Position numbers and translations under genes: made by a program. Shown in pieces: positions 7,894 through 23,590 of a DNA stretch of 24,206 nucleotides (the first letter of the stretch is position 1; each line of letters starts with the position of its first letter). The DNA comes from a virus: positions 1 to 24,206 of IMG/VR virus record IMGVR_UViG_3300037891_000325; one strand, 5' to 3'. The notes beneath the pieces were generated by a model. It saw nothing but the letters and a program-made list of their open reading frames with translations, ran no database searches and was not told the origin of the DNA.

Positions 7894-8373
7894 ATGACAC
7901 AAGCAATGTACGCACTGCTATCCCAAATGGATGGCATGATTAAAGACCCAAGAGTATTGGGATTCGAACCGACGTTTAAAAGAATAGAACGTCAAGTAAA
8001 CCAACCACGAAACGATAGTTTCCCTCCGCACAATATTGTGTACTCAAAGGATAAGGAATCGTTTAAGGTTGAAATGGCTTTGGCAGGATATGCCGAAGAC
8101 GACTTCAGTATAACACTCCAAGACCAAGTGTTAACTATTGAAACATACGAAGAATTGGAACAACCAGATGAAACGTATGTGCACCAAGGAATTGCACGAC
8201 GTAAGTTTAGAAAGCAATTTACTTTAGGTGAGTACCTAGTAGTTGAAGGTGCCACGTTTGTTAATGGTATGTTAACTATTACGATTAATAAAGAACTACC
8301 CGAGGAAAAGAAACCAAAAACTATTGCAATTAATGGTAAGAAAACTAAAGAAAGTTCTTTACTTACTGAGTAG
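7894..8373 (+). CDS. hsp20: Small heat-shock protein, Hsp20/alpha-crystallin family
   Basis: A 159-residue IbpA-like holdase. The alpha-crystallin domain spans about residues 45-140: SFKVEMALAGYAEDDFSITL, then QDQVLTIETYEE, an RKFRKQFTL segment and the strand GATFVNGMLTITI. The conserved GML motif is present. A short Lys-rich C-terminal tail follows; a clear IXI motif is not obvious. Hsp20 genes are common in T4-like cyanophages and other aquatic phages and are thought to help fold structural proteins. Late promoter control here fits that role. The ribosome-binding site GGAG is well placed. Confidence 0.95.
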   Translation: MTQAMYALLSQMDGMIKDPRVLGFEPTFKRIERQVNQPRNDSFPPHNIVYSKDKESFKVEMALAGYAEDDFSITLQDQVLTIETYEELEQPDETYVHQGIARRKFRKQFTLGEYLVVEGATFVNGMLTITINKELPEEKKPKTIAINGKKTKESSLLTE

Positions 8374-8386
8374 TTTTTGGTATAAT
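8358..8386 (+). promoter_or_regulatory. Promoter for the structured RNA / polymerase leader
   Basis: TTTACT at 8358-8363, a 17-base spacer, TATAAT at 8381-8386 within TGGTATAAT. It overlaps the end of hsp20 and fires into a 200-base non-coding region. The expected start is about 8393. Confidence 0.75.
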
Positions 8387-8392
8387 AGCAAT

Positions 8393-8556
8393 ATAATTTA
8401 AGACGGAAAGTATCTATTCATCTATACGAATAGACAACTGGAAAGCTTAGAGATAACTTGGTACAATATCTATAAAATAAGTCGCCACGCGGGGATCACA
8501 TAGTTTTCGGACTCCCTTAGCCGGACTCGGACCATAGCCGAGGAGCGACATTTTTA
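8393..8556 (+). ncRNA. Candidate structured non-coding RNA or long polymerase leader
   Basis: A non-coding stretch of about 165 bases bounded by a promoter (8358-8386) and a T-rich run (8551-8555). Visible helices: TCTATTC 8413-8419 with GAATAGA 8428-8434 (7 bp); AGATA 8451-8455 with TATCT 8467-8471; an outer stem GTCGC 8481-8485 with GCGAC 8545-8549; inside it GGGA 8492-8495 with TCCC 8513-8516, TTCGG 8506-8510 with CCGGA 8521-8525 (these two interleave as a possible pseudoknot), and CTCGG 8526-8530 with CCGAG 8538-8542. The 8481-8549 part is about 62% G+C, far above its surroundings. It could be an independent small RNA ending in a terminator, or a regulatory leader of gene 43. I do not recognise a known RNA family; it is not a tRNA. 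Confidence 0.6.
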
Positions 8557-8558
8557 TC

Positions 8559-8587
8559 TTTACAAACCGCATCAAATGTGGTATATT
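8559..8587 (+). promoter_or_regulatory. T4-early-like promoter for DNA polymerase
   Basis: TTTACA at 8559-8564 (context TCTTTACAAA), 17-base spacer, TATATT at 8582-8587 in TGGTATATT. The predicted start (8594 or 8595) falls on the polymerase ATG, so the transcript would be leaderless. Confidence 0.8.
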
Positions 8588-8594
8588 ATATATA

Positions 8595-11057
8595 ATGAGT
8601 AATTACGTGAACTTCTATACTAACGTCAGCCGATACGGAAACAACATTCTGTACCGTGGCTATGACACTGAAGGCAAACCAGACTTACGGAAGATAAAGT
8701 ATCAGCCGACAATGTTTGCCGAAAGTAAAAACCCCAACGCTGAATGGCGAGGACTTGATGGCACTCCAGTTGAAAAGGTAAACCTTTCATCTATGCGAGA
8801 ATGCAAAGACTTCATTCAGTCTTATGGCGATATACCTAACTACAAAATCTTTGGTAATACTCGACATGTACATGCGTGTATTCAATCAATTTTTCCAAAC
8901 ACGATTCCAGCAGATACTTCGCTTATCAATGTCGTAACAATCGACATCGAGACTGCGTACTCTGATGGCTTTCCACATCCTAGCCAAGCAGCTGAGGAGA
9001 TTCTTGCTATCACCGTCAAGTCGTCCAAGAGCAACAAGTATGTTGTCTTCGGCCTAAAGGATTGGTCAGCTGAGGATTCTGATGTTGGACTCAATATCGA
9101 ATACCATCAGTTCTACACGGAGAAACTTTTACTTGCCGCCTTCCTAGACTGGTGGAAAGAACCATACAACACGCCAGATGTTATTACTGGTTGGAACACT
9201 CGGTTCTTTGATATTCCATACATTGTCAATCGAATGGCTCGTGTACTAGGTGAACAAGAGACTAAACATCTCTCGCCTTGGGGAATGATTGAAGCTCGTA
9301 AGATTGGTGTTCGTGGCCGTGAGGAAGTTACCTTTGAAATGATTGGTATTGCTTCGCTCGACTATATGGATTTGTTCAAAAAGTTTGCTTACACATATGG
9401 TAACCAAGAATCATATTCACTGAATCACATTTCGCATGTCGTACTCGGTGAGAAGAAGCTTGACTACTCGGATGTCGGTGACCTTATGGATTTGTTCGAA
9501 CAAGACCACCAACGCTTTATTGATTACAATGCTAAAGACGTAGCTCTGGTTGCACGGATTGACGAGAAGCTCGGACTGATTAACTTAGTTATGACCATGG
9601 CCTATATGGCAGGTGTAAACTTTGCTGACACTCTTGGTACAACTGCGATATGGGATTCTATTATCTTTCGCGAATTGATGCGACAGAAGATTGCAGTTCC
9701 ACAACCAAAAGAACATAAGTCTCAAGCATTCGTTGGCGGATATGTCAAAGACCCCCAGGTCGGTATGCATGACTGGGTAATGTCTTTTGACCTTAACTCA
9801 CTTTATCCAAACATTATTATTCAGTACAATATGTCGCCAGAGACTTTGATTCCTCACGACAAAGCTGAAGGTGCTCAAGCAGCTAATGGTTCTGTATTCC
9901 GCAAAGACAAGAAAGGTATCATTCCACAGATTGTCGAGAAGATGTACGAGACTCGTGTTGTCACTAAGAAAAAGATGCTTGGCGTCAAACAGCAAATTGA
10001 GACCGAAGGCAAATCTGATTCACTGATTCGCGAGGCAACCATTCTTGAGAATACTCAGATGGCTACTAAGATTCTACTCAATTCACTTTATGGTGCGATG
10101 GGTAACAAATGGTTTCGATACTTTGACTTACGAGTTGCTGAAGGTGTAACTACTACTGGCCAGAAAGTTATTCAACATGGCGAAGCTGCCGTGAATAAAT
10201 ACTTGCAGAAAGTAATGGGTGACGACAAAGACCGAGTGATTGCAATGGATACTGATTCTTTATATGTTGGTGTCGGTGATTTGGTAGACAAGTTCTGTAA
10301 AGACAATCCTGTTGACTTTCTAAACAAGTTCAGCGAAGAGGCAGTCGAACCAGTACTTGCCAAAGCATACAAACAATTTGCCGAAGACTCCAATGCGTAT
10401 ACTAACCGAATGGTTATGGGACGAGAAGTTATTGCTGATCGTGGTATATGGACAGCCAAGAAACGTTACATTCTAAATGTTCACGACTCAGAGGGTGTTC
10501 GATATGCTCAGCCCAAGCTTAAGGTTATGGGTATCGAAGCAGTCAAGTCTTCTACTCCTATGATTTGCCGTGATGCGATGAAAGAGATGTTCAATATTAT
10601 TGTGCAGGGTGACGAAGCAAAAACACAAAAGGCGATTAAAGCATTCAAAGATACATTCAAGAAGCTTCCACCTCAACAGATTGGTTTCCCCCGCGGTGTC
10701 AGCTCGGTTACAGACTATGTTGACCGAAATACTATCTATCGCAAAGGTACTCCAATTCATTCTCGCGGTTCTATCTTGTACAACTACAACTTAAAGAAAC
10801 AAGGCCTCGACAAAAAGTATCAGTACATTACTAATGGTGACAAAATCAAATTCTTGTACTTACGCAAGAACAATCCTATCCGCCAGAATGTCATTGCGTT
10901 TCCTAATGACCATCTGCCTACAGAGCTCGGCTTACACGATTGGATTGACACTGACTTACAATTTCAAAAAACCTTTCTCGACCCTATCGAGATTATACTA
11001 AACGCAATTGATTGGTCAGCAGAACCAATCGCAACCCTAGAAGAATTCTTCGCATGA
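8595..11057 (+). CDS. 43: Family B DNA polymerase (T4 gp43)
   Basis: The replicative polymerase with 3'-5' proofreading, 820 residues against 898 in T4. Exonuclease motifs: DIET 117-120 (Exo I), GWNTRFFD 199-206 (Exo II), Y311-D315 in YNAKD (Exo III). Polymerase motifs: DLNSLYP 399-405 (A), K492 to YG 499-500 (B), and DTD 552-554 (C). The C-terminus ends TLEEFFA, a likely clamp-binding peptide. The ATG at 8595 has no ribosome-binding site and coincides with the predicted transcription start of the nearest promoter. A GTG at 8607 would give MNFYTNV, closer to the MKEFYISIE start of T4. It works with the clamp and loader encoded at 4213-6999. T4 gp43 controls its own translation through an RNA hairpin, so the structured RNA upstream is noteworthy. 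Confidence 0.98.
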   Translation: MSNYVNFYTNVSRYGNNILYRGYDTEGKPDLRKIKYQPTMFAESKNPNAEWRGLDGTPVEKVNLSSMRECKDFIQSYGDIPNYKIFGNTRHVHACIQSIFPNTIPADTSLINVVTIDIETAYSDGFPHPSQAAEEILAITVKSSKSNKYVVFGLKDWSAEDSDVGLNIEYHQFYTEKLLLAAFLDWWKEPYNTPDVITGWNTRFFDIPYIVNRMARVLGEQETKHLSPWGMIEARKIGVRGREEVTFEMIGIASLDYMDLFKKFAYTYGNQESYSLNHISHVVLGEKKLDYSDVGDLMDLFEQDHQRFIDYNAKDVALVARIDEKLGLINLVMTMAYMAGVNFADTLGTTAIWDSIIFRELMRQKIAVPQPKEHKSQAFVGGYVKDPQVGMHDWVMSFDLNSLYPNIIIQYNMSPETLIPHDKAEGAQAANGSVFRKDKKGIIPQIVEKMYETRVVTKKKMLGVKQQIETEGKSDSLIREATILENTQMATKILLNSLYGAMGNKWFRYFDLRVAEGVTTTGQKVIQHGEAAVNKYLQKVMGDDKDRVIAMDTDSLYVGVGDLVDKFCKDNPVDFLNKFSEEAVEPVLAKAYKQFAEDSNAYTNRMVMGREVIADRGIWTAKKRYILNVHDSEGVRYAQPKLKVMGIEAVKSSTPMICRDAMKEMFNIIVQGDEAKTQKAIKAFKDTFKKLPPQQIGFPRGVSSVTDYVDRNTIYRKGTPIHSRGSILYNYNLKKQGLDKKYQYITNGDKIKFLYLRKNNPIRQNVIAFPNDHLPTELGLHDWIDTDLQFQKTFLDPIEIILNAIDWSAEPIATLEEFFA

Positions 11058-22131: not shown

Positions 22132-22160
22132 TTTACAACTGACGTATCACATGGTATAAT
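22132..22160 (+). promoter_or_regulatory. T4-early-like promoter for the DNA glucosyltransferase operon
   Basis: TTTACA at 22132-22137 (context GTCTTTACAAC), 17 bases, TATAAT at 22155-22160 in TGGTATAAT. The expected start is about 22167, with AAGAAG in the 20-base leader before the ATG at 22187. Confidence 0.85.
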
Positions 22161-22186
22161 AGTGTTTATAATTTAAGAAGAATAGT

Positions 22187-23590
22187 ATGAGAATAGGTTT
22201 TGTTTTTGGAAAAGGTATCGATGGGTGTGGAGTCACTCGTGGTGCTTTATTCTTTGAGAAGTGGTTATATGATAATGGCCATGACTCTGTAGTATTTGAT
22301 TTCATTAATGGCAATCGTTATGGTCGAGCTAAAGATAATAAATTCAAGGGTGAGGTTCTAGAAGTATCAGCTTCAGAATCTGATGCCTCTGTAGGAATTA
22401 TTGATGTAGCCAATAAGTGTGATATACTTATCTGTCACTCAGCTCCTATTCGTAAACACACAGACTATTGTGATAGATACAGACGATTTATCGAAAAGAT
22501 AAACGACCCAATCATTGTAATGCACGACCATGGTATCTCTGTTAATACTATTAACTCAGTTCCCCAGGCATGCGAACTATTTTCTTATGCTGATGTAGCA
22601 GTTCTTCAATCTAAAGACGGACTTTCATCTAGAGCATACACTGACTTTGACGAAGGTTTGAAAGACAGGATTATAGAGAACCCTATTTGGATTGAACCAG
22701 ATGCGTATAACAAATATCGTGCTGATGGCCCAACTAAACATTTCTTATACATCGGTCGTATGTCTCCACTAAAAGACCCTGCACTAATCTGTCGTTCAAG
22801 TAAGCATATGCCAGATTGGTTTTTATCTTTAGTTGGTTGTGAGCGATCGATTTCTTCAGTGGCCTTTGATGATACTAAAGAACTACACAGATGGCCGGGT
22901 CCTTATATTCCACCATTCAGAGACTTTGTTCGTATACATCGATTTGATAAAGATGGTAATATCAAACACAATTGTAAATTGAACGACGAAGAAATTGCAG
23001 TAAACGCATACGAATCTTATCCTTACGATTGGGGTATGAAAACTCTCGGTCAAGCATTCGCATCATGGTGTGGCTATCGACTAACCGACGAAAGAGAATA
23101 TGGTACACGAATGGAATACACTCAGATTGAATCATTTCTATTAACTCTACCAGTACTCAATAAACAATTTGCCGAGAATGCTTATTCACCAGAAGGTAAG
23201 AAGTGGGTTGATTATGATTGTGCACTTACAGCAGAAGCCAACAAAGAAGAAGCTTTGGCTGCAGAGCTCGATAGACTTTGGTATCAAAGAAATGAATATG
23301 TGGATAGGAGAGTAGCTTGTAGAGAACTAATTTATAAGTTCAATGATATTGACAACCTAGCACCTAAGTACTTAGATACTATCTTGAAGCTCGGCAAAAG
23401 AGAAAATAAAACCAATGCTATCGAAGCCATAAATACTTTCTTTCCAAACGCAAAAGAATTACGAGAGAAAGGTGAGGTTGTAATGACAGCACCAGGCTCT
23501 TATCTTAAAAGAGAAAAGTATATTTTAGTAAACAATAAACAACAAAAGGCTGAAGAAGAAACATCTTCTTTGGAATCATTTTTCGCATGA
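22187..23590 (+). CDS. agt: DNA alpha-glucosyltransferase homologue (T4 AGT-like)
   Basis: A 467-residue GT-B glycosyltransferase (T4 AGT is 400). The N-terminus MRIGFVFGKGIDGCGVTRG matches T4 AGT (MRICIFMARGLEGCGVTKF), and further matches are the CDILICHSAP segment (CDILIINSVP), MHDHGIS (YQHDHSV) and SYADVAVLQSKDG (RRADVIFSHSDNG). A retaining-GT region YIGRMSPLKDP is at about 187-198. T4 AGT transfers glucose from UDP-glucose to 5-hydroxymethylcytosine in DNA; the nearby gp42 supplies that base. The C-terminus SSLESFFA mirrors that of the polymerase and probably binds the clamp, as published for T4 AGT. The sugar donor may differ from glucose. It overlaps the next gene by 4 bases. Confidence 0.85.
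   Translation: MRIGFVFGKGIDGCGVTRGALFFEKWLYDNGHDSVVFDFINGNRYGRAKDNKFKGEVLEVSASESDASVGIIDVANKCDILICHSAPIRKHTDYCDRYRRFIEKINDPIIVMHDHGISVNTINSVPQACELFSYADVAVLQSKDGLSSRAYTDFDEGLKDRIIENPIWIEPDAYNKYRADGPTKHFLYIGRMSPLKDPALICRSSKHMPDWFLSLVGCERSISSVAFDDTKELHRWPGPYIPPFRDFVRIHRFDKDGNIKHNCKLNDEEIAVNAYESYPYDWGMKTLGQAFASWCGYRLTDEREYGTRMEYTQIESFLLTLPVLNKQFAENAYSPEGKKWVDYDCALTAEANKEEALAAELDRLWYQRNEYVDRRVACRELIYKFNDIDNLAPKYLDTILKLGKRENKTNAIEAINTFFPNAKELREKGEVVMTAPGSYLKREKYILVNNKQQKAEEETSSLESFFA

Follow-up and report, generated by a model that had tools for sequence, protein, structure and literature searches.

Comparative analysis indicates that a 69-nt segment between hsp20 and the DNA polymerase gene (positions 8481–8549 of the 24,206-nt stretch of viral DNA analysed here, designated the window) is a genuine structured RNA element that had not been described before. 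Its existence and conservation, the pairing of helices P2 and P4, its absence from Rfam, and the promoter layout were established by computation. The element probably forms the structured 5′ domain of a non-coding phage RNA unit that is free-standing and would act via its folded core.

Structure and conservation of the element

The window derives from a T4-like phage genome; this fragment encodes an AAA ATPase, a gp45-like clamp, clamp-loader-like proteins, Hsp20, and a family B DNA polymerase (gene 43). The closest annotated genome is that of Phage C48C1 (Kyanoviridae), with a polymerase identity of 49%. The end of hsp20 (8373) and the start of gene 43 (8595) are separated by 221 non-coding bases, and no noteworthy reading frame was found in 8374–8594, in agreement with the non-coding stretch described in the original prediction. 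A protein-coding reading of the element was rejected: no frame has a plausible start, and the indels in the alignment with a diverged copy (L088) are not multiples of three. The features are listed in Table 1.

Table 1 Coordinates of the element, its helices, and the flanking genes and promoters.
Feature	Positions	Strand	Basis or remark
hsp20 gene (context)	7894–8373	+	Pfam HSP20, 4.3e-18
RNA promoter, TTTACT (8358–8363)–17 nt–TATAAT (8381–8386), TG before −10	8358–8386	+	Promoter scan; overlaps hsp20 end
AT-rich 5′ part of predicted transcript, small hairpin	8393–8480	+	Kept in L086 and L087, not in L088
Structured RNA element, 69 nt	8481–8549	+	cmsearch, 4 contigs; 20/20 pairs kept, 4 two-sided changes
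P1 5′ strand GTCGC, pairs with GCGAC (8545–8549)	8481–8485	+	Invariant in all four copies
P2 5′ strand GGGGA, pairs with TCCCT (8513–8517)	8491–8495	+	GGTGG/CCACC in L088
P3 5′ strand TTCGG, pairs with CCGGA (8521–8525) across P2, possible H-type pseudoknot	8506–8510	+	Invariant sequence
P4 hairpin CTCGG-ACCATAG-CCGAG	8526–8542	+	CCCTG/CAGGG in L088
P1 3′ strand GCGAC	8545–8549	+	Alignment of four copies
Gene 43 promoter, TTTACA (8559–8564)–17 nt–TATATT (8582–8587), TG before −10	8559–8587	+	Promoter scan
Gene 43, family B DNA polymerase (context)	8595–11057	+	Pfam DNA_pol_B, 1.8e-32

The G+C content of the element is 0.62, the same as the value of about 62% given beforehand, and the helices named from the window (GTCGC/GCGAC, CTCGG/CCGAG, and the interleaved GGGGA/TCCCT and TTCGG/CCGGA) are all present. 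Unpaired CACGC and ACATA are conserved in the core, while P2 and P4 are variable. The element was also found downstream of hsp20 in three further IMG/VR phage contigs (L086, L087, and the diverged L088). The copies in the window, L086, and L087 are near-identical, and a covariance model trained on these three near-identical copies only detected L088 with an E-value of 3.9e-11. Identity between the window and L088 is 49/66 (74%) in the element versus 48% at four-fold sites of gene 43 (P ~1e-5).

Both the conservation and the covariation on which the original prediction depended were found among these relatives. Every pair is kept in all four sequences (100% of cells paired), and the two-sided compensatory changes relative to L088 comprise two in P2 and two in P4, with one additional G-U to G-C change in P2. 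In a slide control in which the partners were shifted by 1–3 columns, 33–53% were paired and no two-sided change was observed. Pairing survives each of the nine substitutions seen in P2 and P4, and random placement keeps all 10 pairs in 209 of 1,000,000 trials. The covariation in P4 is a genuine forward test because the CTCGG/CCGAG hairpin had been named from the window alone; because the known copies amount to only two independent sequence variants, a single comparison supplies all of the covariation. P1 and P3 are the same in every copy and hence lie outside the covariation test; a closing stem and an H-type pseudoknot would fit them. The fold is thus compatible with the pseudoknot proposed earlier, and pairing of its second helix, the invariant P3, is allowed and neither supported nor contradicted by covariation; in L088, P3 faces competition from an extended P2.

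P1, P2, and P4 all appear in the minimum free energy fold computed from L088 alone (z = −2.0). For the window copy, the folding energy is unexceptional (z = −0.14 for 8393–8560 and z = −0.59 for 8476–8560), so the thermodynamics of the window alone proves nothing and the evidence is comparative.

A scan with Rfam 15, in which membership was defined as a match at the gathering score or an E-value below 0.1, gave no gathering-score match, and none over 8481–8549 even at E-values up to 10, which bears out the earlier statement that no known RNA family fits. The covariance model of manA RNA (RF01745) does not match at 8481–8549, and its sole match in the window is a chance partial one (9747–9825, minus strand, E = 0.036). 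None of the Rfam ribozyme models matches the element, and ARAGORN found 0 tRNA or tmRNA genes in the window. A CsrA-sponge small RNA was rejected: the window element contains five GGA motifs and that of L088 only two, both in P3 strands, and GGA is not conserved.

BLASTN against phages and plasmids gave no real match. Degenerate pattern scans of IMG/VR and GTDB contigs (84,980 species genomes) yielded the element, among the matches listed, in the four contigs only; such scans demand exact conserved words, and remote variants may escape them. The other matches were chance-like, most of them lacking a covariance-model match, and the listed matches of one broad scan were filtered by script; a match in L224 was judged chance-like on reading. 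A covariance search that covered ~180 loci from the hsp20 and gene 43 sites, together with 41 whole records, returned the same four contigs only, and a weak match in C48C1 (E = 0.59) was taken as chance. In the literature collection searched, nothing relevant was found on an RNA at the hsp20–polymerase gap or on a leaderless gene 43.

Transcription signals around the element

The promoter with a perfect −10 box described earlier was recovered, with TG preceding TATAAT and a 17-nt spacer to TTTACT, and transcription of the RNA is predicted to start at ~8393. The promoter stretch TTTTTGGTATAATA is identical in the window, L086, L087, and L088 and similar in L009, L012, L014, and L089. Most of the upstream part of the transcript fails to align between L088 and the window, and what is conserved in the diverged L088 is ~69 nt only, not the whole 160 nt. 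A promoter-like copy of the region (81% over 37 nt) was observed at 22152–22188, upstream of an ORF at 22187. The T-run reported after the element is present at 8551–8555, but it is not a canonical terminator: no plus-strand intrinsic terminator (a GC-rich hairpin with a loop of 3–8 and a T-run directly after it) was found near 8549. With no clear terminator behind the element in the window, transcription may read through into gene 43.

The separate promoter claimed for gene 43 was found as well (Table 1). The ATG coincides with the predicted start site, 7 nt beyond the −10 box, and lacks a Shine-Dalgarno sequence. In most of 38 relatives (L003–L079) this distance is 5–9 nt (mode 6; start codon misplaced in some rows of the tally), the promoters being sigma-70-type with a 17-nt spacer, and a Shine-Dalgarno sequence at gene 43 was found in none of the 38. 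With this spacing the ATG falls on the expected start site, and as a Shine-Dalgarno sequence is missing too, gene 43 is probably leaderless across most of the phage group. In L087, a near-identical promoter stretch precedes a 2OG-Fe oxygenase gene instead of gene 43, and the presence of the element is independent of gene 43 being the next gene.

The hsp20-downstream site in related phages

In L087 and L088, manA RNA lies 5–13 nt behind the element and is followed by a terminator-like hairpin and then by the promoter of the next gene; manA matches lie directly downstream of the element in G002 and G003. The order in L087 is element, manA, 2OG-Fe oxygenase gene, and gene 43. The window and L086 have the element with the manA part absent, and L009, L011, L012, L014, L081, and L089 have manA at the site without the element. 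In L087, the element's end (GCGACATGATTTTT) and the terminator's end (TCGACTTTTTATTC) are each similar to the window junction GCGACATTTTTATC, which suggests that the window lost manA by deletion between short matches at these two ends; the reverse event is possible. The loss appears recent in the window lineage, and the window copy could therefore be a relic. As relatives carry manA directly behind the element, the 160-nt RNA of the window can be read as a shortened version of a longer non-coding unit.

Further observations were made at this site. manA is also located 3′ of hsp20 in L084, L085, and L099. In L011, L012, L087, and L088, the shared promoter at the hsp20 end precedes it, and a terminator-like hairpin and a separate promoter for the next gene come after it; such a location is unusual for an element of a 5′ UTR. 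A boxA-like sequence (rRNA antitermination; TCTTTAACAATTTAGAATA) occurs between promoter and manA in L011 (2724), L012 (2723), and L089 (2978). In L010 (2230–2320) and L014 (2230–2330), a 2OG-Fe oxygenase gene begins right behind the terminator-like hairpin linked to manA; neither a promoter nor a Shine-Dalgarno sequence is evident there, and this gene is a possible cis target of manA. More distant phages have tRNAs at the hsp20-downstream site. In L095, L096, L097, L099, L100, and L101, the region after hsp20 holds tRNAs and further unnamed, structured-looking RNAs, including a tRNA-like piece (GGGCTAG...CTGGTCCA) for which ARAGORN makes no call. A glutamine riboswitch (RF01739) scored above gathering in L084, a near relative of the window (9673–9724, minus strand), and a ROSE_3 RNA thermometer gave a weak match below gathering at the hsp20 start of L014 (1442–1506, E = 0.008).

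Proposed role and comparison with known RNAs

In the explanation that we favour, the non-coding unit would be kept directly downstream of hsp20 in this phage clade and transcribed from the strong promoter inside the hsp20 end. The closing stem P1 would enclose P2, possibly in an H-type pseudoknot with P3, and the hairpin P4. In relatives the unit would run on into manA RNA and end at the terminator-like hairpin, the manA part being missing in the window lineage, and the next gene (gene 43 here, the 2OG-Fe oxygenase gene in L087) would start from its own promoter as an apparently leaderless mRNA. The RNA may bind a protein or a small ligand through its folded core, in its own right, and would not control gene 43 translation. 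More tentatively, it may represent a novel class of small phage RNAs that form a pseudoknot and are active in themselves (as an aptamer, a ribozyme, or a protein-binding RNA), located in the hsp20-downstream non-coding slot that manA RNAs and tRNAs also occupy.

The main rival, which we regard as rather unlikely, is a tandem cis-acting sensor in which the element and manA are two serial aptamers controlling read-through into the downstream gene. It accords with the short distance between the two RNAs in L087 and L088, with the proposal of manA as a riboswitch candidate (PMC2864571), with the 2OG-Fe oxygenase gene of L010 and L014 that directly follows the manA-terminator without an obvious promoter, and with a conserved unpaired core and variable helices, which are typical of aptamers. 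However, the downstream gene in the window, L086, L087, and L088 has its own promoter and an ATG at the start site without a Shine-Dalgarno sequence, and a longer transcript would therefore be poorly suited to translate it; moreover, the window and L086 have no manA.

Less probable still is a reading in which the manA RNA of this subclade has the element as an accessory 5′ domain and a recent deletion left the window with an orphan copy that is not functional alone. The element does adjoin manA in both variants that have manA, and the window junction looks like a deletion between short matches, but most manA RNAs at the site (the six contigs named above) are without the element, and the element is intact in both manA-less lineages.

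The original prediction left the choice between an independent small RNA and a leader regulating polymerase synthesis; an unrecognised structured RNA with its own promoter was upheld, and the leader of gene 43 was not. In the window and L086, gene 43 directly follows the element and no clear terminator intervenes, which would favour a leader that controls polymerase synthesis like the T4 gene 43 operator. In T4, this operator consists of a small hairpin that overlaps the ribosome-binding site. The element resembles it as an RNA near gene 43 of a T4-like phage, whereas the end of the element is 45 nt away from the ATG, on the upstream side of a separate promoter; the element lies outside a gene 43 mRNA 5′ UTR near the ribosome-binding site, and provides no hairpin overlapping such a site. 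The RNA is not the leader of gene 43 because that gene has its own promoter and probably a leaderless mRNA; in L087, manA and a gene separate the element from gene 43, and a reading contradicted by the layout of relatives in this way is highly improbable. Equally improbable is a GC-rich DNA site or a chance fold, with which the ordinary folding energy of the window copy would agree, given the compensatory changes, the slide control, and the covariance-model match.

Among known RNAs, manA shares with the favoured free-standing unit the hsp20-downstream site, the phage clade, and a structured nature, and adjoins the element in L087 and L088, but it is ~190 nt long with another helix order, and the element fails the manA model. 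wcaG RNA (RF01761) is likewise structured, of a similar size class, and found in T4-like cyanophages; a wcaG variant was rejected, with 0 matches in G000, G001, G002, and G003, none in the window or close relatives, and a different conserved sequence. HDV-like and other small pseudoknotted ribozymes resemble the element in their compact nested pseudoknot of about four short helices. Their strand order differs: P1 of the element is the outermost nested stem, with P2 and P3 interleaving inside, and an HDV-like topology was rejected on this helix order.

manA and wcaG are riboswitch candidates, mostly from marine metagenomes and cyanophages (PMC2864571), and S-CREM1 has both (PMC9964418); the glutamine riboswitch is used with tmRNA by marine T4-like phages (PMC9004378). 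The element adds an unlisted structured RNA to this small set (manA, wcaG, and the glutamine riboswitch) of T4-like aquatic phages, and the gap downstream of hsp20 emerges as a site at which such phages exchange structured RNAs. That the unit has a promoter to itself and, in the presence of manA, a terminator-like end, beside a probably leaderless gene, calls into question the assumption that manA invariably regulates from a 5′ UTR.
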